20,522 nucleotides of DNA, taken from positions 1 through 20,522 of the IMG/VR virus record IMGVR_UViG_3300020054_000705. The stretch is one strand, 5' to 3'. Shown here piece by piece: positions 2 through 17,442 of this stretch. How positions within the stretch are numbered: position 1 is the stretch's first letter; each line of letters opens with the position of its first letter. The notes beneath the pieces are model-generated. The model saw only the letters and a list, made by a program, of their open reading frames with translations, was not told the origin of the DNA and ran no database searches. The DNA comes from a virus. Position numbers and translations under genes: made by a program.

Positions 2-3000
2 AGAAGTGAACCGGGCGCGAGCACCAGCGTCTACTACCTTGAGTACGACCCCGACGTTGGGAAATCCAGTGGGTTCCATCTGGGCGCCGACGAAGTGCTG
101 TTCAAACGCCTAAGCGGTCTACGCGGCGCTATCGAAACAGATGGCATTCGTCGGGCAGGGAGCAAGCAATCCAGCCCCTTCCTCTATTTCCGAGGCGGGC
201 GCGACAGTCCAGACCACTGGGTTCCGCTCTACTTCGGCGGCGGCTTCTCCGGTGCAGTGGTCGACATCAACGACGGTACGCAGAACGACTACAGTGACTT
301 CTACACGCACCCCTACTCGTCTGGTCCCACGGGCTCTGCCGGGCTGCAAAACGTCGGGGAACTGGCTGGCTCTTACGCGCTCATCGACACCAACGCGATG
401 CTGGCGATGTTCCCCGGCACGCCTTACCTTGACCAGCACCGTGGCCAGAACAACCCTCCGTACTTCAACCAAGACGCCATGCTTTCCTTCGACATGGCCA
501 AGGGTGCGAACACCAAGGTCACTGGACTCACCTACACAGACGGCACCAATTCGGTGCATGCGAACGTGCCCACTCCCCTCATCCTACGCTTCGCACATCC
601 TCACGCACGCTACACCCCTGAGGGCAGCACGACCGACCACACCACCTACATGGTGTTCGGGCCGGGCCAAGCCTTCCCACACAGCGCTTCGCAGTACGAG
701 CCGCAGGGCTCAGACATCGTCACGGCTGGCAACGGCTACAGCGCGGTCCCTATCCACATTGGCGGCGACCCCACCAAGGACTCATTCCTTCCCAACCAAC
801 TGGCGAACGGCGACGGAACTGAACACTCTGGATTCAACCGCACCAGTAGCGCCACAGCGCACCTTCCCATGACGACCTTCTTCCAGCAGAACCACCGCCA
901 AGGATTCAACTACGTGATGAATTGGCAGCCCACCAAGGGCTTCCCGTCCACCAGCGCCTCTGCCACGAAGTCCTACACTCAGGCATCCAACGAGGCGTTC
1001 TACTTCGACGGCTCTGCCGTCACGACAGCCAACCTACCGAAGCACTACCACCCCTTCTCCTACGTCTTCGCAGACCTTGCAGGGGCATTCGTTGGTAGCG
1101 TGACTCACCCCAAGACACGCCGTTCGTCCGTTGTCTGGCACATGGACGGTGGCTACCATCCCGGCGGCCACTTCCTCGACAACCACGTAATGAAGAATCC
1201 CACCAACCCAGTGGGAACCAACCGCTTGAACGTGGGAGGGTTGGCCAAGCACAACCCGTCTTCCTTCCGACCTGCGGGGCTGCTGGCGAAAGCGTACCTC
1301 GACTACTACGCCGCTGACCGCCAGCAAGACACCGATAGTCACGTGGTTGTCGTGGACGCTACGCGCTGCCAAAACGCAGAGGAGTTGGCCACGGTCCTGA
1401 GCGCCGCCATCAACACGTTCCCCGGCGCTGACCCCTTGAAGGCTATTGGCGGGACGTTCATGCCGAGCATGCAGAACGCTCACAACCAAGACAGGTATGG
1501 CTGGGTCGAACTTGACGTCGTGTCGTACACGGCAGAATCAGGTGCGACACCGGCCTCGCTGACGGTGACCAATTCAGCCACCACGCTTCCTGACTACGGG
1601 TGGGTGCGCGTGTCGAACGGGACCTTGGCTGGCTACGCTCCCTACATCTCACAGAGCGTCAGCGCTCCCAACACTACGTTCACGTTGGCGGTGGCCCCCG
1701 GAACCAGCGCTACGAATGTGGTTGACGAGGCTGGCAACCCTGTCGTGCCGACAACCGACTTCAAGGCCTACGTCTGGACCAAGGCTGGCGTTCACCGCCA
1801 TAACAACGTCAACGCTCCTTCGCGGGACCACATGACGCAGGTTCACTTCAGCGGCTTCCACGACGCCGTCGACAGGACGCGGCCCACGGGTGCAGTGGGC
1901 TGGCACGGCGAAGCATACTCCTACCTGAACTCGTATCAAATCGAATCCTCCGGCCTCTATCCGGCTGGGCTTGGCGCTTGGCACCCGTTCTTGGGATTCG
2001 CGCCCTACGGGGCTTCTGAGAACTGCGCTGCTGGCGGTTCGCCCAAGGGCTCTGTCGATTCGCCTGCCGCAGCGTTCTTCGGCGACTACTGCGTGACTGG
2101 GCTCGCAAGTCGCCACCTCGTGGCTGTGACCCACGAAAGTGAACTGCCGCTGATTGCCAAGGCTGACCGCGACGGCGTGAGTTGCACGGGTGACTGGTTG
2201 CACATGGTCCAGAGCACCAACATCGCTCACGCTGGCACGGTAGCATGGGACGACAAGGTGCATAACAAAAGCCGCTACGTCGGCCCTGCTACGGCTGGCC
2301 CACATGTTGAATTGCAGGTGTCCAAGCAGTTCTCTGTCCCAACAGAGTCGTCGAATTACCCGGCGAGCGGGTCAGCAGCGACTGACGCTCAATGGCACAG
2401 GACGATTCAAAACGGCGACATGCTTCGCGCTGATGCGTGCGTCTTCCCTACCGGCGACCTGTTCTGGGATGAGAGTGTGGTCACTCACTCTTCTTCGCAC
2501 GAAAAGGCGTCCAACTACGGTGTCGAGTGCATCGGCGTGAACAACCACAACGATTACCTCGACATCACCGCCTCGACGACTGACTCGCCTCACAACGGGT
2601 TGTTCGGTTTCTACGACGCTCGGCTCGCTGCTCGAAACTTCCTCCCTGAGCACGTCGTCTGGAAGCGCATGGATGGCGGTAGCCTCACGATGCCATCCCT
2701 GAGTGCTCGTGGGCTCGGCATGGTGCCATGGGTCAAGCGCAAGGTGGGAGCCGACGACTACCGCCTCGTCGGTGAAAAGGTGCTTGGTAACGTGCGGTTC
2801 TCCTTTGAATCCACGAACGCAGCCATGTTCCCAATCATCCAAGCACAGGAGTTGGCGCACCCGCAGTTGGCTGAACAGCACCCGCTTGAAATCCGAAACG
2901 CGCTGCTCATTCCCAACGAGGAGCAGCAGTTTCAGAGCATGCTGGTGGTCGACGACACTGGGCAAGAGCATTACCTGCAGGGCGGCTCGCCCTTGGGCAC

Positions 3001-6000
3001 TATCATACTGGACTTCCGACACGTCAGCGACCGCGACATCGAGGGACTGGCGCCCGCTTTGGCAGGGGCAGGGGTCAGCCCGAACCTGCGTATTCGATTG
3101 CCCAACGCCGATGAGATTCCGGGGAACATCATTGTGCGCAGCGGATTTGACCGGATTCAGGCGTATCAGACTGAAACCATGGGCTCTGGTGGCTTGCAGC
3201 ACCCTGCTCAAGGTGGGCTGCAAATCAGGCAAATGTTCGACCGTGAGTTCAGCGGACCACGCCTCTGGCCGACGTGGGAGAACAATGGCTGGGAGCATCT
3301 CAGTCAGGACAGTTCAGACATTTCGACCACGAAGAGCGCCGCCCGCCTCAAGTTCCCTGCATCCACCAGCGAGGGTTGGGCCGACCACACGGACAACGCT
3401 CCACTCGACTCTGCCTACGAACCACACGACCGCAGCCTCTTCTTCCACGTCACTCGCATGGGCGTGAGCATGACGCACCGCTACGACGTCGACGAGTTGG
3501 ACTACAGTGGGTACGAGGAAACCACCGTCCAAGTCGCTTCGACCCCTGCCGCAAGCGTCTGGGCAGATGCGTCAGAGCAGAGCGGGGGCCGCTGGTTCCT
3601 GCGCGTCTATGACCCAAGCACCGACAAGGGCGTGTTGGCATCCTACACCGGCACCAAGTCCGATGGGTTCACAGGCGTCGTGTTCAGCCCGGACTTCGCC
3701 TCTTTTGTCGCTGGCAAGAGCGGGCTCAAGGTCACGCCCTCCTACTACATGCCTGCTGGCAGCACGCGCATGTTCGCTTCGCGCCGCCTACGTGACCACA
3801 GCGAATACAGTGGTGCGAGCCCGGACATGAAGAAGGTGGACTGGTTCGACGTCTACGACAACCTGCCCGCCTCCACAGGCGCGATGACCAAACCTTCCGC
3901 GCCCTATTCCCGCATGACTGCTCCTAAGATGACCCCAATGCCGATTCCACGCATGGGTCACCACTACGTCACGCCGACCATGGCTATGCTCCCCGGACAC
4001 TACGCGCACCCTGCCTACCAGCGACTGTACGACCTGCACCACGCCTGCAAGAGTTCCAACTACAGCCCTCTGCACCAGAGTTTGACCGGCTCGCTTGAGA
4101 ACACCCGCACCAGCGGCTCGGGCGCCACCATCGAGTCAGAGGGCTTCGGACGCGACCCACTCGTTTGGTTCTCGACGCCAACCGCAGCGTTTGGACCCAG
4201 CGACATCCACGGAGGTGCCTTCACCCTGCTCACGGAAACCAAGGTCAAGTACGAAGGCTACGGTGTGGCGGCGAGCACTGGCGCTAACGCTGGCGATGTG
4301 AACGCTCAGGGCGGACATACGCTGGTGCTGGAGGCTGCGAACACCTACACGCTGGGCAACCACTTCCCTGACCCTCTGGAGGTCGGTGCTTATCAAATCA
4401 TCATCCAGCCGAACGTGTTCAAGCAGCAACTGCAGGGTTTCCACAAGAACCACAGCGAGGAGGCCAAGGCTCCCAGTGAGGCTGGCACCAAGGTCACAGA
4501 ACTGACGGGGCAACAGGTCAACACCGTCATCGCCATCGAGCGGGATGTGAGCACGCGTGGAGCCGTGGCTCTCATTCTGGCCGAAGCCATCATGGCTGAC
4601 GTGCGCGGTTGTGAGGTCATCCTGAACGAGGTCATGCTCGACATCGAGCCGGACGCGAACAGCCAGTTCGCAAACCTGCCTCCGTTGGCTCTGTTCAACC
4701 CCATGGGTGTGCAGGAGAGCAGCAGCCCCGCATTCACGCGCCGCAGCCTCCCCTACCGACCGGGAATGTTCCAGAGTTCAACTCCGGGCCGCACGCTCAC
4801 CATCCCGTGGTGGGGCATCCTGCACAAGGACGGGGCCACTTCCTCTGGAGCAGAGAAGTTCCGCCATCTGGAGTGGCACAAGCCGGACAACTACTACGAG
4901 TTCTGCCGAGTTGGCTACGGCGCCATCGGCTCTCAAATGACGCTGGCTGGCTACCCGACAACCTACCTCGACATTTACGAGCCGCATAAGCGTGCTCGCA
5001 GCCTCAATCCGAACTGCATCGTTCTGGCGAACGACTCCGGTGCGCAGACCATCACGGTTGACGACAACGCACTGTTCCCAGTGGCCCCTTACTACGGTGA
5101 GGTGCTGGAGTACACGAAGGACGGCATTCGCTACACTGCGACCTACACCAACCGGACAGGTACGCTCGCCCACGCTACGCTCGGAGCGAGCACGACGTTC
5201 GAGGGCGTCGTCGGCAGTGCTGCGTTCTGGACTGGTCTGGTCAACGAGTCCACAGTTCTGCGACTGAGCAGGCCCTACGACAACGGACCAAGTGACGAAC
5301 TGTTCACCAAGTCAGCGACCAGCATCATGACTCGCAACTTGCCGCAGTACGCTAACGGCAGCCGCGACACCAACTCGCTGCACGCTCCAGACGCATTCCT
5401 GTGCATGTGGCACCCCAACCTTGGGCGACCCTTCACGTGGTACAGCGACGACGAAAGCCGTGCATTCTACACCAACGACGGGTCAGCCGATGCGCCTGTG
5501 GACAAGAAGCCGTACAACCACGTCCCTGAGCATTTCGAGACCATCCACTACCACGATTTCAACTACGTCGCCAGCAAAGGCCCGTTCGGCCTCGCTATGA
5601 AGTGGGTCGCGCCGCCAGCCAGCAGTCAAGCCCACACGGGCGACATTTACACGGCCACCGCCATCGACGCTGTGGTGGATGGCGCTGGCACGCTCGACCA
5701 CCAAGGTGGCACCGTTGGGGCGAACAAGTACAACTTCGCAGGCTTCTGGCCCGGCGGCAGCCGTGGTGCTGGCGGCGTTAGCCGTCTGGAAACCTACGGC
5801 CATGCCCTCATCGGGTGGGGCAGCGACACCTACGGCATGGACTGCGAGACCTACCAAGATTCGACAGGTGTGGCGACGCTGGCCCTGCCGAGCGACCGTA
5901 ACAGGTGCTTCGGCTACCGCATGGCAGTGCGCCAGTTGTTCAACAGGCCGCGCTGGTCGCCATATGTCCGTGGATGGCTGGAAGTGGCCAACAGCAACGC

Positions 6001-7771
6001 CATGCTCGGGTACTATCATGGTCCGCTCATCCAGCAAGACTCCAAGACCGGCGGCTGGGATTACGTGGGCGCTGACGCTGACGAGTCCGACGAGGACTTC
6101 GACGCCCTTTACGTGGGCATCCTTGAGCGCATTACGCAGGTGTCCAGCCTCCTTGGTCAGGACCAACTGGGAAGGCAGGTTCGCTACAGTGACGGGCGCC
6201 GCATGACCGGGCCGTTCGGTTGTCCGGTTCGTACCCTGCGCAACACATCGACGACGACGCGCCTGTTCCCCAACGACGCTGAGGGTCAGGCTGTTGAAGA
6301 GTTGGCTGAGGCTCACCGCTTCTACATGGTCGATTGGTGGGGCAACACGCGCGGTGAGGACGTGCGTCGCTTCCCTGTCCGTGGCTTCGGTCTGCGCCCT
6401 TCGTGGGACCCAGAGGACGCATATGCAGACACGAACGTCACGCATCGTCCTGCAGCGCACGGTCTGTTCGGCGGAGACGGGAACGACCGCTACAGCGGCT
6501 GCGATAACAGCGACAATAACGCAGCCACGAACATGGGCACCGTTGACTGGTTCAACCCAGCCAGCGCTCTGCGAGTGGGTGACCGTGGGGATGGGCGTGG
6601 TGTGCGCTGGCCCACTGTCTTCAACGAAAGCCTGCTGATGGACGTCAGCGAAGCCCACGACGCCACAGGCCTCGTCCTGAGCCACAGCACGTCCGAACCA
6701 GTCTTCGGCAACGGTCTGGTCCGCCCAAGCAACGCTGCGCCTCAGCCCGGTGAAATCGAACGCGGCATCAGCGACCGCGTCGACCTCAACAGCGATGATG
6801 GCCTCCTCAAGCCCTCAGCGCACGTCGCAGAGGGCATCGAGACCGTGACGGCCGACATTCGTGGCGCTGAGCCAGTGGGCAGGGACGACGTGCGCCTTGG
6901 CCTTGATGTCGACACCATCGCTGAACTGAACGACGGCGTCAGCCGTGAATACATCGTCATGTCCACTGAAGCAGCCAGCCTACACACCGACCGCGCTGTT
7001 GGCCAGCGCACAAACGTGCGTGGCGCTCACAACGTCGGAAGCCGCACGCTGAACGACCTCGACATGACCGCACTCGATTGGTCCGACAAGCCGGTGTCCG
7101 GTGTGGTCCGACACTCGGATGCGCACGCGATGTGGCCGCTTGGCGGCACCTACGTCATGGAGTGGAGCAAGCACGCTGGCGTCCTTGACGTCAAAGGCTG
7201 GGGCAAGGCGGGTGCCTCTTCTTCCTCTAACCCCTATCAGGATGCAAACCATGACCCGACCAAGGAGAACGTGAACTACACGGACAGCACCATCCAGTTC
7301 ATCTACAGGCCTGCGCACGGGTTGGACTACCGCCACAGTCAGATGTTCCGACCGTTTGTCGACACGACAGGTCCTCAGACAGGGTCCAACTTCTTCCGCG
7401 CTACTGCTGGCGGCAAGTACGGCCTCTTCACCAGCGACGTTCCCAGCGCACGCACAGGGACGCCGAGCAACCCACCGTATGCCCCCGTCTACACCGTTGA
7501 CCCAGATGCGCCCACCACGGCGGACAGCAACGGTCCCAAGATTCAGGGCGTCGACGTCGCAGGCTTCGACAAGACTGACGTGCGCTCACCAGTTGCGCGC
7601 ATGGTGATGTCTGAGAACACGCTGGAGCACTTCCGCGCTGACGCAAGCCGCCGCTCTATTGACGACGACGAGGGTGACTACAGCGTGCAGCCACGGCACA
7701 GCCAAACGCTGCATCCGAAGGGCAGCAAGGGCGACACTTCCTTCAACACCGGGGACCATAGCGGAGAGTGA
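2..7771 (+). CDS. Giant virion/tail-associated structural protein, 5' end cut by window edge
   Basis: The reading frame is open from the left edge, so the gene begins upstream; the first possible internal start (GTG at 95) lies mid-protein. At least 2589 residues are present, ending in TGA. I recognise no family. The composition is that of a surface beta-rich protein: many His, Tyr, Trp, Asn, Asp and Gly, few Lys, scattered single Cys, no coiled coil, membrane segment or signal visible. A Trp/Arg-rich block at about 6330-6400 (key residues DWWGNTRGED then FPVRGFG) and a Gly/Asp/Asn loop at about 6470-6520 that could bind calcium stand out. It is followed after 6 nt by the next structural gene and heads a block that ends in a tail fibre, so a tail, baseplate or host-contact role is likely (inference). 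It is not an obvious tape measure, since long helices are lacking. The coding assignment is certain; the function is not. Confidence 0.85.
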   Translation, partial: RSEPGASTSVYYLEYDPDVGKSSGFHLGADEVLFKRLSGLRGAIETDGIRRAGSKQSSPFLYFRGGRDSPDHWVPLYFGGGFSGAVVDINDGTQNDYSDFYTHPYSSGPTGSAGLQNVGELAGSYALIDTNAMLAMFPGTPYLDQHRGQNNPPYFNQDAMLSFDMAKGANTKVTGLTYTDGTNSVHANVPTPLILRFAHPHARYTPEGSTTDHTTYMVFGPGQAFPHSASQYEPQGSDIVTAGNGYSAVPIHIGGDPTKDSFLPNQLANGDGTEHSGFNRTSSATAHLPMTTFFQQNHRQGFNYVMNWQPTKGFPSTSASATKSYTQASNEAFYFDGSAVTTANLPKHYHPFSYVFADLAGAFVGSVTHPKTRRSSVVWHMDGGYHPGGHFLDNHVMKNPTNPVGTNRLNVGGLAKHNPSSFRPAGLLAKAYLDYYAADRQQDTDSHVVVVDATRCQNAEELATVLSAAINTFPGADPLKAIGGTFMPSMQNAHNQDRYGWVELDVVSYTAESGATPASLTVTNSATTLPDYGWVRVSNGTLAGYAPYISQSVSAPNTTFTLAVAPGTSATNVVDEAGNPVVPTTDFKAYVWTKAGVHRHNNVNAPSRDHMTQVHFSGFHDAVDRTRPTGAVGWHGEAYSYLNSYQIESSGLYPAGLGAWHPFLGFAPYGASENCAAGGSPKGSVDSPAAAFFGDYCVTGLASRHLVAVTHESELPLIAKADRDGVSCTGDWLHMVQSTNIAHAGTVAWDDKVHNKSRYVGPATAGPHVELQVSKQFSVPTESSNYPASGSAATDAQWHRTIQNGDMLRADACVFPTGDLFWDESVVTHSSSHEKASNYGVECIGVNNHNDYLDITASTTDSPHNGLFGFYDARLAARNFLPEHVVWKRMDGGSLTMPSLSARGLGMVPWVKRKVGADDYRLVGEKVLGNVRFSFESTNAAMFPIIQAQELAHPQLAEQHPLEIRNALLIPNEEQQFQSMLVVDDTGQEHYLQGGSPLGTIILDFRHVSDRDIEGLAPALAGAGVSPNLRIRLPNADEIPGNIIVRSGFDRIQAYQTETMGSGGLQHPAQGGLQIRQMFDREFSGPRLWPTWENNGWEHLSQDSSDISTTKSAARLKFPASTSEGWADHTDNAPLDSAYEPHDRSLFFHVTRMGVSMTHRYDVDELDYSGYEETTVQVASTPAASVWADASEQSGGRWFLRVYDPSTDKGVLASYTGTKSDGFTGVVFSPDFASFVAGKSGLKVTPSYYMPAGSTRMFASRRLRDHSEYSGASPDMKKVDWFDVYDNLPASTGAMTKPSAPYSRMTAPKMTPMPIPRMGHHYVTPTMAMLPGHYAHPAYQRLYDLHHACKSSNYSPLHQSLTGSLENTRTSGSGATIESEGFGRDPLVWFSTPTAAFGPSDIHGGAFTLLTETKVKYEGYGVAASTGANAGDVNAQGGHTLVLEAANTYTLGNHFPDPLEVGAYQIIIQPNVFKQQLQGFHKNHSEEAKAPSEAGTKVTELTGQQVNTVIAIERDVSTRGAVALILAEAIMADVRGCEVILNEVMLDIEPDANSQFANLPPLALFNPMGVQESSSPAFTRRSLPYRPGMFQSSTPGRTLTIPWWGILHKDGATSSGAEKFRHLEWHKPDNYYEFCRVGYGAIGSQMTLAGYPTTYLDIYEPHKRARSLNPNCIVLANDSGAQTITVDDNALFPVAPYYGEVLEYTKDGIRYTATYTNRTGTLAHATLGASTTFEGVVGSAAFWTGLVNESTVLRLSRPYDNGPSDELFTKSATSIMTRNLPQYANGSRDTNSLHAPDAFLCMWHPNLGRPFTWYSDDESRAFYTNDGSADAPVDKKPYNHVPEHFETIHYHDFNYVASKGPFGLAMKWVAPPASSQAHTGDIYTATAIDAVVDGAGTLDHQGGTVGANKYNFAGFWPGGSRGAGGVSRLETYGHALIGWGSDTYGMDCETYQDSTGVATLALPSDRNRCFGYRMAVRQLFNRPRWSPYVRGWLEVANSNAMLGYYHGPLIQQDSKTGGWDYVGADADESDEDFDALYVGILERITQVSSLLGQDQLGRQVRYSDGRRMTGPFGCPVRTLRNTSTTTRLFPNDAEGQAVEELAEAHRFYMVDWWGNTRGEDVRRFPVRGFGLRPSWDPEDAYADTNVTHRPAAHGLFGGDGNDRYSGCDNSDNNAATNMGTVDWFNPASALRVGDRGDGRGVRWPTVFNESLLMDVSEAHDATGLVLSHSTSEPVFGNGLVRPSNAAPQPGEIERGISDRVDLNSDDGLLKPSAHVAEGIETVTADIRGAEPVGRDDVRLGLDVDTIAELNDGVSREYIVMSTEAASLHTDRAVGQRTNVRGAHNVGSRTLNDLDMTALDWSDKPVSGVVRHSDAHAMWPLGGTYVMEWSKHAGVLDVKGWGKAGASSSSNPYQDANHDPTKENVNYTDSTIQFIYRPAHGLDYRHSQMFRPFVDTTGPQTGSNFFRATAGGKYGLFTSDVPSARTGTPSNPPYAPVYTVDPDAPTTADSNGPKIQGVDVAGFDKTDVRSPVARMVMSENTLEHFRADASRRSIDDDEGDYSVQPRHSQTLHPKGSKGDTSFNTGDHSGE

Positions 7772-7777
7772 GGCACC

Positions 7778-9433
7778 ATGGCGCTTGGTAAGAACACCGT
7801 GACTGGGCGCGCTGATGCGGCCCAGAGTACCGTGATGAAGCGCGTGCGCAAGCCTCGCTTTGTCGACAACGCGGTGCGCCATGCCGAGTACACCCGCATC
7901 AAGGCTGGGTTCGCGGCGCAGTTGCCGACTGCATCTGACTTCGTCCCTACCGCAGAGCGACGCTACCGCCTCATCGAGGAAGAGGACACGGTTCGCATCC
8001 TGCACAACCCTACGGATAGCATGCGCTACGAGGGTGCGCTGTTCTACGACGAGGACAAAGTCACGACCTCGACCCCTCTCCCAGCCTTGGCGGTCGGGGC
8101 CGAGCATCACGACCAAGCACTCGTCCTGTCGCAGTCTGAGGCGGCCACCAAGGGCACCCGTTATCGACTGGAGAATCTGAAAGGCAGTGGGCTGAGCGCC
8201 ATCGGCTTCACCGACAAAACCATTCGTTTTGCTCAGAAAGTCGGCGTGGGGCTGCGAACTTCTGACCTTGCAGTTCGCGTAGCGAAAGCCAACACGTCGT
8301 CCATCAACGGCGTGCGAGCAAAGCAGCCCAGTGGCACGTTTTTGGCCCGCGACTTCTACGGCGTCGAGGCGTTCACTGCACTTCGTTACCTGTCCAAGCA
8401 TGACGGCTACAGCCCTCGTGGCGACCGCTACGGCAACCTTTGCTACTTCCCGCAGTCAAACATCGAGCGGGAGTTCTTCGTGGCTGAGAACAGGGTTCTG
8501 GGCGGTGAAATCGACGACAGCACCGACAGTGCCCCCAACAGGGTCGTCGTTCGCGGACGAGCGCGAGCGAACAACCACAGCAACGTCGTGCAGGTCGACG
8601 ACTTTGGTCGTCAGGGGGCAGGGGTGCTGGAAGTGCCGGGTGGCATTCATGCGCCTACAGCGATGACGCGCTCCAGTGCGAAGGCTATCGGGCAGCGCAT
8701 GCTCAAGATGGCGAACAGCGCGACCGGCTCCAAGGTCCTGACCGAAGTCGTGGGTGCGACGCATATGCACCCCGGCGACATGGTGTCGTACCAGACGCGC
8801 ACGGACAACGAGCGATACGTGGTGCTCGGCAGCGACATTGACCTCGATGCTCGCACCAGCAATCTCCATGTGAACTCAGTCAGCGTGTCCCTTGAGGACG
8901 TCCTTCAGCGGTTTCAGGAGATTGACGTCAGCGGCAATATCGAGGCCAACGAAGAGCGGAACAGGCAGTTCGCTGTCGAGGAGTTCTCCACGTCGTTTGG
9001 CTTCAAGTTCCGCGTGTCGTGGCAGATTGCCGAGCGCGTGGACATGAACCGAGGCGTAGGACTGACGGTCGGGACACACGACCGGAGCGGCATCAATGGT
9101 TCGCTCCGGCTTCAAAGCACAGGCGTCCTCGTGAACAACGGTGGCGGCTATGCGTCGGGCACAACGACGTTCACCACTGACGGTGTGGCTGCCGACACCG
9201 TGTTCACGTCCGACAACCAAGAGGTGTTCAAGCGCAACGGGAACAAACTCGGCCACATCGACGTGGCATCCGTGACGCCCACCTCGGTCGTCATCAAGTC
9301 CAGCAGCGTTCACGCCATGGACGACAACGAAGAGTTGTTCGTCTTGTCCGAAGCACCGCTACCAGAGGTCGGCAACAGCCACCTGCGCATCGGCGCCGTG
9401 CACAGTCGCTACATGAACAGCCGGAGGGGATGA
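7778..9433 (+). CDS. Tail/baseplate protein, possibly hub-like
   Basis: 551 residues, ATG start 6 nt after the preceding TGA, with GTGAGG just upstream overlapping that stop. The N-terminus (residues 1-45) is basic. Residues about 255-375 have the order seen in phage hub or late-control-D type proteins: a strand-rich segment (NRVVVRGRARANN), a helix with spaced Ala/Arg/Met (AKAIGQRMLKMA), then a turn HPGDMV followed by strands. That resemblance is weak and by eye only. The C-terminal third is Gly/Thr/Asn/Val-rich and beta-like. Position between the giant structural gene and the small structural and fibre genes supports a virion role at the tail tip. No enzyme motif seen. Alternative: a tail sheath-adjacent or fibre-attachment protein. 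Confidence 0.7.
   Translation: MALGKNTVTGRADAAQSTVMKRVRKPRFVDNAVRHAEYTRIKAGFAAQLPTASDFVPTAERRYRLIEEEDTVRILHNPTDSMRYEGALFYDEDKVTTSTPLPALAVGAEHHDQALVLSQSEAATKGTRYRLENLKGSGLSAIGFTDKTIRFAQKVGVGLRTSDLAVRVAKANTSSINGVRAKQPSGTFLARDFYGVEAFTALRYLSKHDGYSPRGDRYGNLCYFPQSNIEREFFVAENRVLGGEIDDSTDSAPNRVVVRGRARANNHSNVVQVDDFGRQGAGVLEVPGGIHAPTAMTRSSAKAIGQRMLKMANSATGSKVLTEVVGATHMHPGDMVSYQTRTDNERYVVLGSDIDLDARTSNLHVNSVSVSLEDVLQRFQEIDVSGNIEANEERNRQFAVEEFSTSFGFKFRVSWQIAERVDMNRGVGLTVGTHDRSGINGSLRLQSTGVLVNNGGGYASGTTTFTTDGVAADTVFTSDNQEVFKRNGNKLGHIDVASVTPTSVVIKSSSVHAMDDNEELFVLSEAPLPEVGNSHLRIGAVHSRYMNSRRG
9423..9429 (+). promoter_or_regulatory. Strong Shine-Dalgarno (GGAGGGG)
   Basis: GGAGGGG ends 5 nt before the ATG at 9435. 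It lies inside the last codons of the preceding gene, so translation of the 118-residue protein is probably coupled to the 551-residue one. Confidence 0.7.
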
Positions 9434-9434
9434 T

Positions 9435-9791
9435 ATGCCGCTACTGAACGAAGGAACGAGATTTCTGATTGAGACGCTGCGCGACCGCATCAACGAGGTG
9501 GTCTTCGGCTTCGACGGCACAGTCGCCACCCAACAGGATGGGGGCATCGGCAACCCAGCGGTGGTCGTGACCCCAAACGTCAGGGTCGTTGACGACAACA
9601 CGTTGATAGTCGAAGCCCGCCTGCCTCTCAGTACGACGTTCACGCGCCCGCTCAGAGAAGTGGTCATTCGATATAAGAATCCCGCCGACTCAACCGACAC
9701 GACCGACTTCATGCGCTACACCTACAACGCCGTGGAAAAGACGAGCAACAACGAAGTGCAGTTCTCGGCTATCATTGAGGTGAGCATTTGA
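9435..9791 (+). CDS. Small virion structural protein, unknown family
   Basis: 118 residues; ATG one base after the upstream TGA and preceded by GGAGGGG. The N-terminus is helical (residues 1-25, LLNEGTRFLIETLRDRINEV). The remainder alternates hydrophobic and polar residues as in a small beta sandwich, with no Cys or Trp. I do not recognise it. Its place directly before the tail fibre, and the 4-nt TTGA overlap with that gene, suggest an adaptor joining fibre to baseplate or a fibre-attachment protein (inference). Coding status is well supported by the SD, the tight packing and the typical composition. Confidence 0.75.
   Translation: MPLLNEGTRFLIETLRDRINEVVFGFDGTVATQQDGGIGNPAVVVTPNVRVVDDNTLIVEARLPLSTTFTRPLREVVIRYKNPADSTDTTDFMRYTYNAVEKTSNNEVQFSAIIEVSI
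9777..9783 (+). promoter_or_regulatory. Shine-Dalgarno GAGGTGA deciding a TTG start
   Basis: GAGGTGA, complementary to the archaeal 16S 3' end, sits 4 nt before TTG at 9788. It is the reason for choosing the TTG, whose second and third bases begin the TGA of the preceding gene. Confidence 0.65.
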
Positions 9792-12568
9792 CCAATCCGA
9801 CCGCAGGACACACCAGCGCTACCGGCATGGGTAGCGATGCGCAAGGCCTGCGCGATGGCGACGGGCTGACCAGCCCCAGCCTCACCAACCTCTACGAAGG
9901 GTTGCACGGAAACGGCATCCTGCGTCTGGGGGACGGGGCGCGTGGCGACTCGCTGAGGAACAGCGTGGTGGCTAACACTCCCGGCTACCTGCAAATTGGC
10001 GCCGCTCAGGGAGAGGTCAAAGTCTACGGCGGCTACTGCGTTCTCGACGGCGTCCTCTATCAGTTTGCCAACGGTCCGGGCTCCTACGAGACGTTCATCG
10101 TGGGGACCACTGGGGCAGGGGCTAATCACAGCGGCGACCTTCCCAGCGTGCCGGGCTCCAACAGCGACGTCTACGTGGTTGTCTACCTCGTCGGGCGCAA
10201 CACCCCAGAGGCCCACGTGATGTACGAGATGGGCACGCCTGCAGCGCCTTCCAGCGGCACGCCTCTCATTCCGAACCGCTTCCTGTCGACACCGAGCATT
10301 TCCGGCAACACAGACCTCAACCACCAAACGACCGTGCTGGGCGTGATTCGCTACTCCATGGCAGGTGGCTCAGCCAACGTGACCGCAAGCCTCAGCGGCC
10401 CAGTCATCCACGACCGGCGCACGTTCCTCAGGAACAGTCCTCTCTACCTGACGCCCATGACCAAGGGCGGTATTGGCGACGTCGCTGCCTCCAACGCACT
10501 GACCAACCCAGACGCCTTCTTCTCGTCCCCCGAAGACGGTGACCTGACGGGCAGCACGTTCGGTGCCATTTGGCAGACGCACCGTGAAGACACCGCCGGA
10601 GGGAAGCACGGCGTCATTCTGGCAGCCGTCCCCGGCAATCTGGACACTACGCCTGTGACTGGGGTGCACGTGCTTGGACCCGACCGGCTGGAAAACATCA
10701 CGACGTCGGCGGACATCACGTTCACCTTCGACGAAGCGAACATCTGGGTCATCACTACCGATGCCAACCGCACGATTGCTGCGAATGGGGTTTTTCCGGC
10801 AGGGCACATCGTGGACATCTACCACAAGGCGGGAGCGCACACGCTGACCTTCGACCCAACGGTAGGTGGTCACGGCGCAACTCCCATCAACGTCAGCATC
10901 GCGGTCGGCGACTCTGCTCGTTTCGTCTACGACGGAACCGACTGGCACCAAGTCATCGCATCTTCTGCCTCACCACCCTCTGCCAGCGGCGCCTCCGGCC
11001 TCGTCCAATTGTCGGACGGGGCGGGTGGCTTTACCAGCGACGCAGACCTGTCGTGGGACAGTGCAGCCGGAGAATTGACGGTGGACGGCAAGTTGACCGT
11101 TACTGGCCTGATTGACCCCACTGGGCTCGAATTGGACCCGCAGGCCACCAACCCCGGCGGTGTGGCTGGGAACACCTTGTGGCTCGACAGCGGTGCGAGC
11201 AACCGCCCCAAGATTGGGACAAACGCCGTCATCCGCGCTTCCGACAACATCAGCGAACTCACCAACGACTCGGCTTTCGTTGACGCTGCGGGTGCGGCCG
11301 CTGCTGCTCCAGTGGCATCGGTGAACACTCAGACTGGAGCAGTGAGCCTCGACGCTGACGACCTTGCAGACGGCACGACCAACGTGATGATGACCGCTGC
11401 GGAGCGCACGAAGTTGACCGGGGTCGAGACCGGCGCAACTGCTGACCAGACGGATGCTGAGATTCGCGCCGCAGTGGAGGCGGCTACGGACTCCAACGTG
11501 TTCACAGACGCTGACCACACGAAGTTGGACGGAATCGCTGCGGGCGCTACCGCCAACGACACGGACGCCAATCTGCGCGACAGGGCCACGCACACTGGCA
11601 CTCAAGCGGCGAGCACCATCGGTAGCGGTACGTTTGCTGATGCACGCATCGCACAAAGCAACGTGACGCAGCACCAAGCGGCTCTTTCGATTACTGAGTC
11701 GCAGATTTCAGACCTTCAGGGCTACCTGCTTTCGGAAACGAACGACCTGACTGCGTCGGTGACGTGGGCGAATGTGCCAGATGCCAACATCACCCAGTCG
11801 TCCGTCACGCAGCATCAGGCTGCGCTGACTGTCGACGATAGCCAAGTGACCGCTGCGGCAAGTGCAACGAACTACACGCCCTCAGCAGCCACCGTCGAGG
11901 GACACCTGAGCGGCATCGACGCTGCGATAGGTGGTGTGTCCGTGACTGAGACGGACCCTGTGTTCACCGCATCAGCCGCAGCCTCCATCACCAATGCGGG
12001 CTCGGGACTCGTCACCACATCAGCCGAGCGCACCAATTGGAACGCAGCCTACGGGTGGGGTGACCACGGTGCGGCAGGTTACCTGACCAGCGCACCTGCC
12101 CCTGATTTGCTACTCCTTGACTCCAACGGCGTGAACATGACGGCAGGTACGAAGGCTTCTTGGAATACGCTCACGAACTTTACGACTCGTACATCAAGCG
12201 GAACTGCCCCTACATACAACGCAGGCCTCGGCCAAATTACCATCAATGCGTCGGGAACGTATGAGATGATTCTGAGTATCGTGTTCAGGAACGCATCGGC
12301 GGGTTGGGGTTTGGCGTGGTCTTCGTCCTACACGAACTACACCCGTATGTGGGTCACGCGGGGAGCGACGACCGAACTCGGTCCCGTTCAAATGACGTAT
12401 TCGTCATCAATGCAGAATACCCTTGTGCGAGTTCTTGACCTTCAGGCAGGTGATATCATCACACCTGTTGTGTATTGGAACATGTCGTTCGCTTCAATGG
12501 AATGCTTTGAGAACTCACCAACGACTGTCGGTTTTCAGAATTACTGCATGATTAGGAAGGTGTCTTGA
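9788..12568 (+). CDS. Tail fibre / receptor-binding protein
   Basis: 926 residues from a TTG start supported by GAGGTGA. The N-terminal ~220 residues are Gly/Asn/Ser-rich and probably attach to the tail. Residues ~300-400 form a beta domain. From ~410 onward come elements typical of bacteriophage fibres: GLVQLSDG and LTVDGKLTV segments; NTQTGAVSLDADDL; two copies of a TKL-x-G-x3-GATA-x2-TDA unit (about residues 539-597); two copies of a VTQHQAAL unit (about 618-680); and a YGWGDHGAAGYL motif near residue 755. The last ~140 residues look like a C1q/TNF-type jellyroll head, a common receptor-binding tip. The DNA of that tip is clearly lower in G+C than the shaft (about 50% against over 60%), suggesting a swapped module. 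Probably trimeric by analogy with phage fibres. The 3' end overlaps the next gene by one base (TGATG). Confidence 0.88.
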   Translation: MTNPTAGHTSATGMGSDAQGLRDGDGLTSPSLTNLYEGLHGNGILRLGDGARGDSLRNSVVANTPGYLQIGAAQGEVKVYGGYCVLDGVLYQFANGPGSYETFIVGTTGAGANHSGDLPSVPGSNSDVYVVVYLVGRNTPEAHVMYEMGTPAAPSSGTPLIPNRFLSTPSISGNTDLNHQTTVLGVIRYSMAGGSANVTASLSGPVIHDRRTFLRNSPLYLTPMTKGGIGDVAASNALTNPDAFFSSPEDGDLTGSTFGAIWQTHREDTAGGKHGVILAAVPGNLDTTPVTGVHVLGPDRLENITTSADITFTFDEANIWVITTDANRTIAANGVFPAGHIVDIYHKAGAHTLTFDPTVGGHGATPINVSIAVGDSARFVYDGTDWHQVIASSASPPSASGASGLVQLSDGAGGFTSDADLSWDSAAGELTVDGKLTVTGLIDPTGLELDPQATNPGGVAGNTLWLDSGASNRPKIGTNAVIRASDNISELTNDSAFVDAAGAAAAAPVASVNTQTGAVSLDADDLADGTTNVMMTAAERTKLTGVETGATADQTDAEIRAAVEAATDSNVFTDADHTKLDGIAAGATANDTDANLRDRATHTGTQAASTIGSGTFADARIAQSNVTQHQAALSITESQISDLQGYLLSETNDLTASVTWANVPDANITQSSVTQHQAALTVDDSQVTAAASATNYTPSAATVEGHLSGIDAAIGGVSVTETDPVFTASAAASITNAGSGLVTTSAERTNWNAAYGWGDHGAAGYLTSAPAPDLLLLDSNGVNMTAGTKASWNTLTNFTTRTSSGTAPTYNAGLGQITINASGTYEMILSIVFRNASAGWGLAWSSSYTNYTRMWVTRGATTELGPVQMTYSSSMQNTLVRVLDLQAGDIITPVVYWNMSFASMECFENSPTTVGFQNYCMIRKVS
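11402..11578 (+). repeat. Two-copy coding repeat in fibre shaft (37-residue period)
   Basis: Units at 11402-11467 and 11513-11578, 111 nt apart, encode related 22-residue blocks sharing TKL, G, GATA and TDA. The protein is conserved more than the DNA, as expected for shaft repeats in phage-type fibres. Confidence 0.7.
11639..11827 (+). repeat. Two-copy coding repeat in fibre shaft (VTQHQAAL unit)
   Basis: Units at 11639-11686 and 11780-11827, 141 nt apart, encode 16-residue blocks identical at 13 positions. Codons differ at many synonymous sites, so the duplication is old or kept by protein-level selection. Confidence 0.75.
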
Positions 12569-12735
12569 TGCGTACAGTTGAAGAAGCGATTATTGCCAAT
12601 ACGAACCTCACTCATCAAGAGTTCGTGGACTACCCATTGGTAGTGAACGGTACATACGACAGTTCGGCTTGGCCCTCATCGGGCTTCGGCACCGCGCCTA
12701 CGCTTGCTCAGGTACAGGCTTGGATGGCTGCTTGA
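12568..12735 (+). CDS. Small protein following the tail fibre, unknown
   Basis: 55 residues; ATG at 12568 shares its A with the TGA of the fibre gene, with AGGAAGGTG a few bases upstream. The N-terminal half is acidic and probably helical (TVEEAIIANTNLTHQEF). The C-terminal part is small-residue rich (SSAWPSSGFG) and ends in a short amphipathic helix (LAQVQAWMAA). No family recognised. Like the fibre tip it lies in low-G+C DNA, so it may travel with that module as a tip partner, fibre chaperone or accessory protein (inference). Its stop overlaps the next start in the same TGATG arrangement. Confidence 0.6.
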   Translation: MRTVEEAIIANTNLTHQEFVDYPLVVNGTYDSSAWPSSGFGTAPTLAQVQAWMAA

Positions 12736-12989
12736 TGGGGCGACTGGTCGACCTGCTCAAGCAGGAGTGTGAGAACTGCAGACGCATCGCTCTGCCTCGT
12801 AGTATCTCTGGTCGCTACGTCAGCGGTGAATTGGCCGTGCTACACGAGTGCCCTTTCTGCTCCTACGTGCGGTTTCACGGACAACTGGGATTCAAGGGCG
12901 AGCGCAAGCGCCGCGCAGAGCCGGTGTCGAAACGAGCAGGCGGACGCCTCTCCGCGTTTCTCAGGAATAGGGCTGAGAAAATGCGGTGA
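12735..12989 (+). CDS. Small zinc-ribbon protein with basic tail
   Basis: 84 residues starting at the ATG that overlaps the preceding TGA by one base; no strong SD, so probably translated by coupling. Two CxxC knuckles (C12/C15 in CENC and C39/C42 in CPFC) separated by 23 residues form a classic zinc ribbon. The C-terminal ~35 residues are strongly Arg/Lys-rich, compatible with nucleic-acid or capsid binding. It is the last plus-strand gene before the convergent junction. Function unknown; a transcription- or packaging-related role is possible, but nothing in the sequence decides it. An in-frame ATG further upstream (12669) would run through the 55-residue gene and is less likely. Confidence 0.65.
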   Translation: MGRLVDLLKQECENCRRIALPRSISGRYVSGELAVLHECPFCSYVRFHGQLGFKGERKRRAEPVSKRAGGRLSAFLRNRAEKMR

Positions 12990-13057: not shown

Positions 13058-14551
13058 TCACTCACCGCGCTTTCCGATGATGTCGTCGATGCGGAGGATG
13101 CTGATGGTCACTTCACTGGCTGACTGCACAGCCTGTCGCACCAGTTCAAGGGGCTCAAAGACGCCAGCCTCAACCATGGAGCAAGCACCGCCATTCTCGA
13201 TGTCCGGCCCAGCATCGCCGTTGCCCTGCATGTGCTCGTTGCGCAGCGTCAGGATGGTGTCCAGTGGGTCGTGACCGGCGTTCTCGGCGATGGTGGCAGG
13301 GATGCCCTCCAGAGCGTCTGCAAAGGCGTCAATGGCCATCTGCTCACGCCCACCGGCTTCTGCCGCACGAGCGCGCAGGTGGAGGGCCGCGCTGAGGTAG
13401 GCAGAGCCGCCGCCAGCCACGGTCTTCCCGCTGTTGTGAGCCAAACAAACGACACCCAGCGCATCCTCAAAGCCGCGCTCAGTCTCGTCGAGCGTCTGTC
13501 GGGTTGCCCCTCGCAGAACGAGGGTGGTCACTTCGCCTTCGCCCTCGACGATGACGTAGCGCATGTCGCCGATGGTTTCGCACCTGATATGGGCGTCAGA
13601 AGCCACCTTCCCACCGTCTTCGACGCTGTGGTACACGGTGGTGCCCAGAAGTCGAGCCAGAGCCGTCATGTCGCTTTCTGGCACGCGGTGGACCACAGCG
13701 ATGTTGGCGTTGGCCAGAGCCGCCGCAACGACCTCGTTGACGGTGTCCCTGCAGAACACGGCACCTCCGTCAGGCATGATGCTGATGATGTCCGTGGCCT
13801 TCTGAATCCACTCGTCTCGGCTGGACTGCTTCCGGTACTGCTGGTATTCCTGCGCAGAAGACAGGCTGATTTGCACGTTGTCGTCCTTCTTCCCGTCGCC
13901 AAGACCCGTGTTGATGAGCAGCACCTTGGGCGCAGGCTCGTCGGGCATGGCCGGGAGCATGAACTCCTTGTGCAGCACCACGCCGTGGAAACAGTACGAG
14001 TCGTCCAGCGAGCCACCCGGCTGCGAAAGGACCCGGATGCGGGAGTAGTCGCCGTTGGCGTTCTTGGCTGCCGTCACGCACAGTTCGCTAACGTGGTCCA
14101 TGCTGGACTCCAGCGCCTTTCCCGTGATGGAGGTCCGTGCAATCTTGCTCAGAGGCGCCTCGACGGTCAACGAGTTTAGGTGCTCAACGGCCCAAGCGGC
14201 TGCCTTGCGGTAGCCACGACAAATGATGTTCGCGTGGAGGCCCTTGCCGAACAGCAGTTCGCTGTTGCCCAGCAATTCACCGGCAAGCACAACCGTGCTG
14301 GTCGTACCGTCGTAGCAGACGTCCTCCTGCGTGTTGGCAGCCTCGACGACCATCTTGGCCGCAGGGTGAGTGATGTCCAACTGCTGCAGAATGGTCGCGC
14401 CGTCGTTGGTGACGATGACGTTCCCGCCTGCGTCGACCATCATCTTGTCCATGCCCATCGGCCCCAGTGTCGTTTTCACCGTCGACACGGCCCGCTTGGC
14501 CGCTCGGATGTTATGCACTACAGCGCTCGTGTTCCCCTCTGTCTCGTTCAT
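13058..14551 (-). CDS. ths: Group II chaperonin (thermosome) subunit, viral
   Basis: 497 residues from an ATG placed 4 nt after GGTGAT; a GTG three codons earlier, overlapping the upstream stop as GTGA, is the alternative. Group II landmarks in order: TLGPMGMDKM (~27-37), NDGATIL (49-55), the ATP/Mg loop DGTT (81-84), an apical domain with a lid-like helical protrusion (~210-260), LDETERGFEDAL containing the catalytic-type Asp (D363), a GGG turn (380-382), NAGHDPLDTI and ILRIDDII. It would form double-ring ATP-driven folding chambers in the cytoplasm. It is shorter than cellular thermosomes (about 545 residues), lacking part of the N-terminus and the Gly/Met-rich C-terminal tail. The first Gly of the usual GDGTT is Tyr here. 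It ends the replication block, facing the large virion genes, so it may fold virion or replication proteins. It could co-assemble with host subunits or form its own ring. Confidence 0.95.
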   Translation of the reverse strand: MNETEGNTSAVVHNIRAAKRAVSTVKTTLGPMGMDKMMVDAGGNVIVTNDGATILQQLDITHPAAKMVVEAANTQEDVCYDGTTSTVVLAGELLGNSELLFGKGLHANIICRGYRKAAAWAVEHLNSLTVEAPLSKIARTSITGKALESSMDHVSELCVTAAKNANGDYSRIRVLSQPGGSLDDSYCFHGVVLHKEFMLPAMPDEPAPKVLLINTGLGDGKKDDNVQISLSSAQEYQQYRKQSSRDEWIQKATDIISIMPDGGAVFCRDTVNEVVAAALANANIAVVHRVPESDMTALARLLGTTVYHSVEDGGKVASDAHIRCETIGDMRYVIVEGEGEVTTLVLRGATRQTLDETERGFEDALGVVCLAHNSGKTVAGGGSAYLSAALHLRARAAEAGGREQMAIDAFADALEGIPATIAENAGHDPLDTILTLRNEHMQGNGDAGPDIENGGACSMVEAGVFEPLELVRQAVQSASEVTISILRIDDIIGKRGE

Positions 14552-14555
14552 CTGT

Positions 14556-14561
14556 ATCACC
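14556..14561 (-). promoter_or_regulatory. GGTGAT Shine-Dalgarno overlapping upstream stop
   Basis: GGTGAT, 4 nt before the ATG at 14551, contains the TGA stop of the exonuclease gene. One element therefore ends one gene and starts the next, and it favours the ATG over the GTG at 14560. Confidence 0.6.
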
Positions 14562-15308: not shown

Positions 15309-16730
15309 TCAAGCACCACCCTTCCTGAACTCAGGTCGCAGTCTGATGTAGACACGCACACCGTCACGAGTGTCGACGAACATTTCTGCTCCGTAGTCGT
15401 TGTACTTCGTGTTGATGGACCCGTGGCTACTGTAGTTGGCCATCTTTCCGAAGGCCTCCATGACTTCGCTCTTCTTGGCCCAGCCCTGACCACGGGTGTC
15501 GTCGAAGTCGAAGAGTTCGCACTGTTCAAACGACTTTCGCCAGAAGTCCTGAACCTTCTTCTTCTCACTGGCGCCCGCACCGATGTTGACTTCGGATTCA
15601 AGCCACTGAATGAGGTTCCCGTAGAGGTCGTAGAGGATTTCGCGTGCCATGTCGACGTGGTCGCCACGTACAACCCAGACACCCTCAATCATGGCCATGT
15701 GGTGAGCGAGGATGTTGGTGTAGTTCTGGAGCCCCATGACGAAGGAAGAGCAGATGCCCTGCTTGTCCGGGCCGAGCGGCTCAACGATGCTGTAGTACTC
15801 GTCAATCGCCATGTAAAGGGCCGGCTTGTACGAGCCGTCAATGGTGAACATTCGCTTCATCAGCCCCATGACGACCTGCTCTTGGTCGTCTTCCGACATT
15901 TCATCCCATTCCATCGGTGGGATGTCGGCAAGGTCAAGGACGCGTCGCTTGAGTTGCTTTTGCAGGTCGGCAAAGAACTGCACGACTTCGTCGAAGGACA
16001 TCGCAGGCTCTGAGTCGTCGTGCACAGCGTCGGCCAACTCGTAGTTGATTTGACGCTTCATCTCCAGCGTCCACTGCCGCCAATACGTCAGAACACGCTG
16101 AAAAATACCCTTATCGAGCACGTGTTCCTTGATGCCCTTCGGCGGGAAAGTGGTAATCCAGAGGGACACCTCGGACTTGACGCTGAACGTCTCACGAGCC
16201 ATGTGCTTCGTGAGGTAGTTGCGCCCAGTACCCGCTGAGTTTAGAGCGGACTGGAGGAAGAGGGTGGTGTTTTCGTTGTGCTGCCCTGTCTTTAGGACGA
16301 CGCTTCCTTCGTCGAAGTTGAGCCCCTTGCGCCCGGCCAGAATGCCGGGGCGCACCATCATGTCGGGGTTGCGCGGGTCCTCCGAATCGGGGTCAGGGAC
16401 CAGTGTGCCCACGAGGGCAGCGTCGTTGCCGGAGTTGTAGTCCATGCTGTTCAGACCTGCTTCCAGCAACACTCGCTCGATGACCTCGTAGGCCGCTGAC
16501 TTGCCCGTCCGAGTGTCCTGAATCCAGAACATGCTGACGCGGGGGTCAAGGTTGCTCCCACCCACAGGGATGCGGACATACGGGATGGCCGCCTGACCAA
16601 GAATGAAGAAGAACGACAGCAGGCCCGGAATCTCGTTGTTCCTGCTGAACATGTTGAAGTGTTCAAGGTAGCCCCTCAGTGCAGGGTATTGCTTGGTACA
16701 TTCATAGTTCGCTGCTCGATGTTCCATCAC
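15309..16730 (-). CDS. AAA+ ATPase, probable replicative helicase
   Basis: 473 residues. The P-loop is TRTGKSAA (G76 K77 S78), without the usual leading Gly of GxxxxGKS. The Walker B candidate is GLNFDEGS (D140, E141), sensor-1-like SLWITTFPP lies at 189-197 and a putative arginine finger is FQRVL (R212). The ~80 C-terminal residues look like a winged helix (WAKKSEVMEAF, then YGAEMFV and VRVYIRL strands). This layout fits MCM-like or DUF3987-like helicases that partner AEP primases in viruses and plasmids. By context it is the best helicase candidate, just downstream of primase and ERCC4 nuclease. The GTG start at 16730 has GAGGAGGG 7 nt upstream, with an ATG as the next codon; it overlaps the nuclease gene by 29 nt. 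Helicase activity is inferred; the ATPase fold is fairly clear. Confidence 0.65.
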   Translation of the reverse strand: MMEHRAANYECTKQYPALRGYLEHFNMFSRNNEIPGLLSFFFILGQAAIPYVRIPVGGSNLDPRVSMFWIQDTRTGKSAAYEVIERVLLEAGLNSMDYNSGNDAALVGTLVPDPDSEDPRNPDMMVRPGILAGRKGLNFDEGSVVLKTGQHNENTTLFLQSALNSAGTGRNYLTKHMARETFSVKSEVSLWITTFPPKGIKEHVLDKGIFQRVLTYWRQWTLEMKRQINYELADAVHDDSEPAMSFDEVVQFFADLQKQLKRRVLDLADIPPMEWDEMSEDDQEQVVMGLMKRMFTIDGSYKPALYMAIDEYYSIVEPLGPDKQGICSSFVMGLQNYTNILAHHMAMIEGVWVVRGDHVDMAREILYDLYGNLIQWLESEVNIGAGASEKKKVQDFWRKSFEQCELFDFDDTRGQGWAKKSEVMEAFGKMANYSSHGSINTKYNDYGAEMFVDTRDGVRVYIRLRPEFRKGGA

Positions 16731-17442
16731 GGCTGTTCCCTCCTCTCCCGTAGGTCTTGGTCACGCGAACAGGCTCCTCAGAGGTCAATACCTCAAGGAG
16801 TCGCTGGCGCAACTTCGGACCGAGGCCTCTCACCTGTTTAAGGCTCTCGGGATAGAGCATTTCTTCAATGGAGCCGCACCGCTCCAGTGTTTTCTGAACC
16901 AGTTCCGGCCCAAAGCCGGGGACGGCGAGCAGCATGTCTGCGCGCACGTCATTGGTGCTGGTGCGGGTCACAGCCCTTGCACCGTGGGTGCTGGCTGGCT
17001 TCTGCATTTTGCTGTGCAGTTTAGCGATGAACATGGCTGCCTCGGAGTAGTCCTTGGCACGGTAGATGTGGCAGTCAAAGTCCGCTGTGATTCGGGCAAA
17101 AATGCCCAGAATCATGTCCTGCGTCTTGGCGTAGGTCACGGGGCGACCCTGTTTCTTGGACAGGGCCACGTGCTTAGCGATGTCGCCGTGCACGACGAGG
17201 ATGACGCGCTCGCAGTTGGCGTCGAGGTTCTCGATTTGGCGCATGAGGTGGCCGCTGAAGGTCGATTGGATGAGGTCAGACAGGCTCTTGCACTCGATGT
17301 GCGCATTACCTGCCTTGTAGTCGCCCATGCCCTGAAGGTGCTCTTTGACGACATCGAAGCCCTCTCGTGCTGCGGCACGCACCACGGCATCGTGGAGAGG
17401 GCCACGCTCGTTAGAGTCGATGACCAGAGGACCTCGCTTCAT
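16702..17442 (-). CDS. ERCC4 (XPF/Hef/Mus81-type) structure-specific nuclease with HhH2
   Basis: 246 residues, the compact nuclease-plus-HhH2 form. N-terminal motifs: VIDSNER (D9, E12), GD (40-41) and IECK-x3-D (E50, K52, D56). The canonical signature is GD-x(n)-ERK-x3-D; here Arg is Cys (C51), while the metal- and catalysis-associated D/E/K/D remain. The C-terminus holds two helix-hairpin-helix motifs, VPGFGPELV (~174-182) and VRGLGPKLR (~204-212), that bind branched DNA. Family members cut flaps, forks and junctions, usually as dimers. A role in resolving viral replication or recombination intermediates, or stalled forks, is likely. The ATG at 17442 has GGAGGGG 9 nt upstream and overlaps the preceding stop as ATGA. 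No C-terminal PCNA-binding box is evident. Confidence 0.88.
   Translation of the reverse strand: MKRGPLVIDSNERGPLHDAVVRAAAREGFDVVKEHLQGMGDYKAGNAHIECKSLSDLIQSTFSGHLMRQIENLDANCERVILVVHGDIAKHVALSKKQGRPVTYAKTQDMILGIFARITADFDCHIYRAKDYSEAAMFIAKLHSKMQKPASTHGARAVTRTSTNDVRADMLLAVPGFGPELVQKTLERCGSIEEMLYPESLKQVRGLGPKLRQRLLEVLTSEEPVRVTKTYGRGGNSRDGTSSSEL

Follow-up and report, generated by a model that had tools for sequence, protein, structure and literature searches.

A giant tail protein of marine archaeal head-tailed viruses, encoded ahead of a hub-like gene, as a candidate tail-tip scaffold

The window, by which is meant the whole stretch of 20,522 nucleotides analysed here (IMG/VR record IMGVR_UViG_3300020054_000705), begins within the gene for a giant tail protein, of which it holds the C-terminal half. 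The unbroken gene in relatives is about 15 kb long, and its predicted product has about 5,100-6,400 residues. Its position in the gene order marks the giant as a tail gene, and it is probably, albeit with much room for doubt, a very large tail-tip (baseplate) scaffold displaying carbohydrate-binding modules. This reading is based on the place of the gene between those of the tape measure and a hub-like protein, the LamG domain at its start, the modules shared with other proteins, and the purifying selection on its sequence. The genes of the window relevant to this argument follow each other in the order given below.

2..7771, plus strand: C-terminal half of the giant tail protein (2,589 aa); open frame with near-full-length relatives, start beyond the window
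7778..9433, plus strand: hub-like tail protein, 551 aa; profile match to HVTV-1 gp133, carries the M1 module
9435..9791, plus strand: conserved protein, 118 aa; match in 192 collected loci, no significant PDB match
9788..12568, plus strand: tail fibre, 926 aa, TTG start; phrog_21412 tail fiber, 7.6e-17
12669..12989, plus strand: conserved protein, 106 aa; relatives in 59 loci
13058..14560, minus strand: thermosome (group II chaperonin), first gene of the opposed block; Cpn60_TCP1, 3.4e-129

Two other genes on the minus strand of the window were also read. The product of 19100-20107 is a RecB-like exonuclease (phrog_69, 1.3e-11), for which tblastn against phage records gave 15 Campylobacter phages at about 21-22% identity, and that of 16702-17442 looks by eye like an ERCC4-type nuclease ending in a helix-hairpin-helix (PHROGs, E of only 0.19). 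In a relative, the start of the product of L105:22881-23810 (minus strand) resembles by eye the archaeal transcription factor B with its zinc ribbon.

The frame at 2..7771 is single, open over 2,589 residues, and runs off the 5' edge of the window. By tblastn against IMG/VR, a total of 99 encoding stretches were identified, from which 76 distinct loci were kept, and most of these align across nearly the whole query. In comparison with the relative L001 (about 80% identical), dS was 1.6, near saturation, and dN was 0.14 (ratio, about 0.085); in each of the nine blocks compared, dN stayed far lower than dS. The near-full-length relatives and the low dN in every block indicate that the frame is a genuine gene rather than a chance frame, and the giant is, as judged from these rates, under strong purifying selection.

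The counterpart of the missing 5' part is present in L001, whose complete copy encodes 5,241 residues. The start of the window corresponds to about residue 2,645 of this copy, and this alignment, together with the other complete copies, identifies the window frame as the second, C-terminal half of a chain of some 5,240 residues. The original prediction of a giant of more than 2,589 residues was therefore right as to the frame, of which the window contains only about half. Profile scans of IMG/VR detected 233, 355, and 360 encoding stretches, the best 80 being kept each time; the most distant relatives thus lie outside the sample, and the records are not equivalent to independent viruses. Of the 238 ORFs on the plus strand that reach 1,200 aa in the collected loci, 235 are relatives of the giant, and a total of 171 were left once contained copies were dropped. 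Among these, the 81 non-redundant complete giants that exceed 4,800 aa, a limit which excludes a few split copies, range from 5,098 to 6,137 aa (median, 5,488), and one further giant-bearing record carries an open frame of 6,362 aa. Extreme length and the presence of several domains could point to a polyprotein cut by a viral protease into several tail proteins, and the frame is in two parts in a few relatives (L031, L057, L061, and record G003). The break sites differ, however, and that of L057 is at a 22-base tandem duplication, so that the split frames look like products of sequencing error or decay and not like natural gene borders. Given in addition the 81 complete single frames, a polyprotein is highly improbable.

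The DNA upstream of the giant was fetched for long relatives and read in nine genomes. The order of genes is terminase, portal, capsid, small head genes, tail tube, two overlapping ORFs, tape measure, one or two proteins of the p667 family directly before the giant, and the giant itself. Terminase, portal, and capsid protein were identified in G014, the tail tube by Phage_tube_2 (27.3 bits against a cut-off of 27), while the two overlapping ORFs are taken by position as putative tail assembly chaperones. The tape measure matched phrog_1535 in L333 (445 aa, 6.8e-17), L334 (382 aa, 2.2e-11), L420 (344 aa, 2.9e-27), L105 (178 aa, 1.7e-12), and L057 (at least 287 aa, 9.4e-27). In the clade of the window, the gene in the tape-measure place encodes just 139-160 aa, compared with 178-445 aa in the other clades.

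L081:14365-14847: short tape-measure gene, clade of the window
L080:3731-4195: short tape-measure gene, clade of the window
L084:5103-5525: short tape-measure gene, clade of the window
L078:5424-5843: short tape-measure gene, clade of the window

Three of these copies gave no PHROG match at E<=0.01 and the fourth only one at E of 0.02; the last 43 residues, however, align with the C-terminal end of the L057 tape measure (E of 4e-17). The length of a tail follows its tape measure by 0.15 nm per residue. With 139-160 residues, the tail tube in the clade of the window should therefore be roughly 21-24 nm long, and the tails very short.

The giant itself was considered as the tape measure, being very long and located in the tail module downstream of small chaperone-like ORFs. 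This candidate was rejected because a separate tape-measure gene stands upstream in the relatives (phrog_1535, up to 2.9e-27). Even the short gene there in the clade of the window has the C-terminus of a tape measure, and the structure models, which cover about 93% of the window half of the giant, contain no long helices (13-15% helix, the longest of 14 residues). The chance that the giant is a tape measure is thus negligible, as the original prediction had supposed from its composition.

The tail module can be compared with that of the haloarchaeal virus HVTV-1 and other Druskaviridae. The window stops short of the capsid gene, which in relatives matches phrog_24667 (4.8e-56), and in a close relative the capsid protein shares about 33% identity with those of HVTV-1 and its kin. 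Chaperones and a tape measure are also annotated in these haloviruses, and the tail tube gave a hint of likeness (HHalign, 26%). The profile of the 551-aa protein matched HVTV-1 gp133, the second gene past the annotated tape measure, with E of 4e-7 when a small set of halovirus ORFs was searched, and in HHalign with a probability of 43 and P of 2.5e-4. Gp133 is YQBQ-like (2.7e-5, under the cut-off), and the gene that follows the presumed tape measure in three other records of the halovirus type resembles Prophage_tail, likewise under the cut-off. For the giant, no Pfam or PHROG match to hub domains of the gp27 or Prophage_tail kind was found. The 551-aa neighbor would be a better candidate for the hub than the giant, its identity as a hub being weakly indicated by these matches. 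In halovirus-type records the hub-like gene comes directly after the tape measure or one small gene later, and the giant is absent (0/6); relative to the haloviruses, therefore, the p667 protein and the giant seem to occupy the gap between tape measure and hub.

The distribution of the giant agrees with this difference. The profile of its N-terminal segment matched in all 29 marine records with a capsid gene and room downstream (hand-picked, from the best 80), and again in 17 of 17 further marine records against none of six of the halovirus type (also hand-picked), which makes 46 of 46 hand-picked marine records with a related capsid gene and room downstream. The core profile A5 was detected in six of six marine records but in none of six halovirus-type records, and no match to it was found in HVTV-1. 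Since Druskaviridae are suggested by Liu et al. (2021; PMC8651126) to derive from among marine archaeal viruses, the giant-free state of haloviruses may reflect a loss instead of the original condition.

In relatives, the half of the giant that is missing from the window opens with a domain of the ConA-like lectin fold, Laminin_G_3 (PF13385), which spans the first approximately 240 residues or less than 5% of the protein. When 300-aa N-terminal pieces were searched, this LamG domain was matched at E<=0.1 by 15 of the 16 members (lowest E, 2.6e-13), the piece of L001 scoring 20.7 bits, under the curated cut-off; scanned whole, the N-terminal 2,600 aa of L001 and 3,000 aa of L076 gave no Pfam family. 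The window half gave no Pfam family at E<=1, a single PHROG match at E of 0.24, and no match by tblastn against INPHARED. The original description of a protein without recognisable domains therefore applies to the window half but not to the missing half. Sequence searches of the PDB gave nothing significant with the profiles of the window half, the L001 N-terminal half, and LamG, nor with those of the hub-like, p667, and 118-aa families, and no known family with an established role was found over most of the length of the giant in Pfam, PHROGs, or the PDB. Giant virion proteins of phages are known as a kind, because phrog_701 has 6,136 positions; its match to the giant was not significant (E of 0.43). 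For the conserved core, no match was found in PHROGs or Pfam.

Upon alignment of 31 giants, insertion hotspots were located after L001 residues 1484, 1513, 1672, 3202, 3211, 4019, 4262, 4518, 4527, 4560, 5054, and 5154. The inserts in the 81 complete giants include a LamG-like type (five giants), a propeller-like type (four), a GSGY type (11), and a 139-aa type (four), and the 80-aa M1 module is present in 42 of the 81. M1 was also found in the hub-like and p667 proteins (HHalign P of 5e-19 and 9e-12). The LamG-like insert matches the virion structural protein phrog_10356 (5e-22), the GSGY-type insert matches phrog_18802 (9e-5) and phrog_697 (0.003), and the propeller-like insert has as its sole match Beta-prop_EML_2 (2e-4, far under its cut-off); the likeness to these three phage virion structural families is limited to the optional inserts. 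Profile self-comparison of the giant for internal repeats yielded nothing beyond weak matches between small modules (best probability, 72%). A p667 paralogue of 824 aa (L081:14850-17324) has a LamG-like domain of about 250 aa, which is optional near the C-terminus of some giants. An apparent colinearity of p824 with the whole C-terminal half of the giant was an artefact, caused by the truncated giant L062 inside the p824 alignment; the genuine relation is this one optional insert of about 250 aa, common to giants and four p824 proteins.

The LamG start, the optional lectin-like or propeller-like inserts, and the nearby fibre gene would also suit a giant adhesin, that is, an extended fibre or spike which is attached at one end to the tail tip and itself picks and binds the host receptor. 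The pattern of conservation argues against it. By summed BLAST segments in 70 of 71 other loci with all the neighbors, mean identity to the window copy was highest for the thermosome (65.5%), followed by the 118-aa protein (62.2%), the giant (60.7%), and the hub-like protein (48.6%); for the fibre it was 47.3% over 57% of the length. The fibre is the variable element of the module, with widely varying coverage and relatives of 371 to 938 aa among the lengths listed. Conservation of the giant is spread along its length, both in 56 distinct complete copies (pairwise identity, 40-100%) and in a wider set, and within the window half the C-terminal end is the most constrained part in the dN/dS blocks against L001. 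A classical fibre has a conserved N-terminal anchor and a variable C-terminal receptor-binding part, and the giant does not follow this pattern. With an average conservation above that of both the hub-like protein and the fibre, and with its C-terminal end the most constrained part of the window half, the giant is unlike a classical receptor-binding fibre, in agreement with the original view that it is no ordinary fibre. An adhesin is accordingly somewhat unlikely, though the most serious competitor. The further suggestion of a tail-tip or host-recognition machine holds in its first part, because place and modules fit a tail tip; a mainly host-recognition fibre is not supported, since the giant is on average more conserved than the separate fibre.

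Two segments of the window half were modelled with AlphaFold2. The model of window aa 35-1234 (88 sequences) had a mean pLDDT of 64 and a pTM of 0.66, and that of aa 1380-2579 (86 sequences) a mean pLDDT of 68.5 and a pTM of 0.76; they contain 17-19% strand and 13-15% helix, the remainder being irregular. Two regions are referred to below.

371..1828, plus strand: best-modelled block, window aa 124-609 (residues 90-575 of the first AlphaFold2 model), mostly pLDDT 55-96
4997..5299, plus strand: small beta-barrel module, window aa 1666-1766; VIA-align, lambda tail-tip protein

The best-modelled block ends in a small beta-barrel (aa about 498-594), and its structural matches are to this barrel only. 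The barrel of the first model matched T5 Dit pb9 with Z of 5.2, amid barrels of EF-Tu and F1, and that of the second model matched lambda gpJ by VIA-align with Z of 7.9 over 77 residues, a score that does not stand out clearly from F1-ATPase barrels at 6-7. Each likeness concerns one small barrel, less than 100 of about 5,200 residues, and because the same barrel is common in F1-ATPase and EF-Tu, kinship with gpJ or pb9 is not supported by the models. The first model gave no PDB match at E<=0.001, and neither model matched a solved structure at Z>=8, which is no proof of a new fold. In BFVD, the sole match at E<=0.001 was A0A1B1IU10 (piece _3 for the first model, piece _4 for the second). This unnamed UniProt entry is the same giant, strongly matching both models in structure as well as in sequence (36% and 43% identity, E of 1e-73 and 3e-96), and a relative is therefore already in public databases. 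Prediction in segments and profile searches, as the original prediction had proposed, thus left the core without a family or solved-fold match, small barrels apart.

The composition noted at the outset stood up in part. Histidine (3.8%) is the highest among the eight window proteins compared; tyrosine, tryptophan, and asparagine (4.2, 1.7, and 4.7%) are equalled or exceeded by others of the eight, and lysine (2.5%) is lower in the fibre (1.1%). The description as beta-like without coiled coil agrees with the strand content and short helices of the two models, in which, however, two thirds is irregular and the confidence middling. Numerous conserved core positions occupied by His, Asp, Glu, Trp, or Tyr, and a size that leaves room for several enzymes, might indicate a tail-tip enzyme that degrades the host surface by an unrecognised catalytic core. 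No enzyme family was matched in Pfam or PHROGs and no enzyme-like fold match stood out, so that an enzyme is clearly unlikely. The tail-tip scaffold has points against it as well, namely a core without fold match, barrel matches common to unrelated proteins, and the rarity of optional lectin-like inserts (LamG-like 5/81, propeller-like 4/81).

If the giant is a tail-tip scaffold, several copies, perhaps three or six, would surround the hub where the tail tube ends distally and build up a large baseplate or cage, in which the conserved core would join the tube end, the hub, and the fibres. The N-terminal LamG domain and the optional LamG-like or propeller-like inserts on its surface might make the first, weak contacts with cell-surface glycans, while host specificity would be set by the variable fibre encoded downstream. 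Copy number, ligand, and presence in virions are what we infer here from the sequence. With 5,240 residues, a single chain has a mass of about 0.57 MDa, and by arithmetic an assumed trimer or hexamer would be about 1.7-3.4 MDa.

The capsid identity of about 33% between a relative and haloviruses, and the thermosome gene in the window, bear out the original suggestion of an archaeal virus. According to Nishimura et al. (2017; PMC5332604), the thermosome is present in 18 of 18 members of marine group II virus clade 1. With its thermosome, halovirus-like capsid, and opposed gene blocks, of which the thermosome and the two opposed blocks are seen in the window, the source virus fits this thermosome-bearing clade 1. 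Marine archaeal head-tailed viruses of the thermosome-bearing, Poseidoniales or 'magrovirus' type are the best explanation of the lineage. The nearest cellular thermosome found was that of a Poseidoniales MAG (39%; others, 36-38%), and a Poseidoniales archaeon is a possible host. When genome contigs were scanned with the hub-like protein, no relative was detected, and thus no provirus link. The GC content of the collected giant-bearing loci ranges from 35 to 60%.

The thermosome, 51-77% identical to that of the window, was found in 14 of 29 giant-bearing records, many of the others being short, and in eight of the nine of at least 90 kb, the ninth (G006) ending inside the giant. In halovirus-type records, the giant was absent from six of six and a chaperonin was not found in the two checked. 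This co-occurrence leads to a bolder and rather doubtful proposal, that the giant is a lineage-defining organ, a tip on the scale of one to several megadaltons which makes up much of a very short tail in the clade of the window and is folded by the virus's own thermosome. The folding link is drawn from co-occurrence within one lineage, for which shared descent alone could account.

The searched passages of PMC10160649, PMC5332604, PMC5628999, PMC7318539, PMC12324425, and PMC8651126 contain no mention of a giant tail protein, nor do the ICTV profiles; earlier notice in Philosof 2017, Prabhu 2025, or Zhou 2023 is possible. The gene of about 15 kb takes up roughly a sixth of a genome of about 100 kb and is present in every tested marine record with room for it, which makes the giant a useful marker for an uncultured lineage of archaeal viruses with a tail plan different from that of the haloarchaeal relatives. 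It also represents a concrete candidate for the structure that makes the first contact with the archaeal cell, and gives a testable reason why these viruses may carry a chaperonin.
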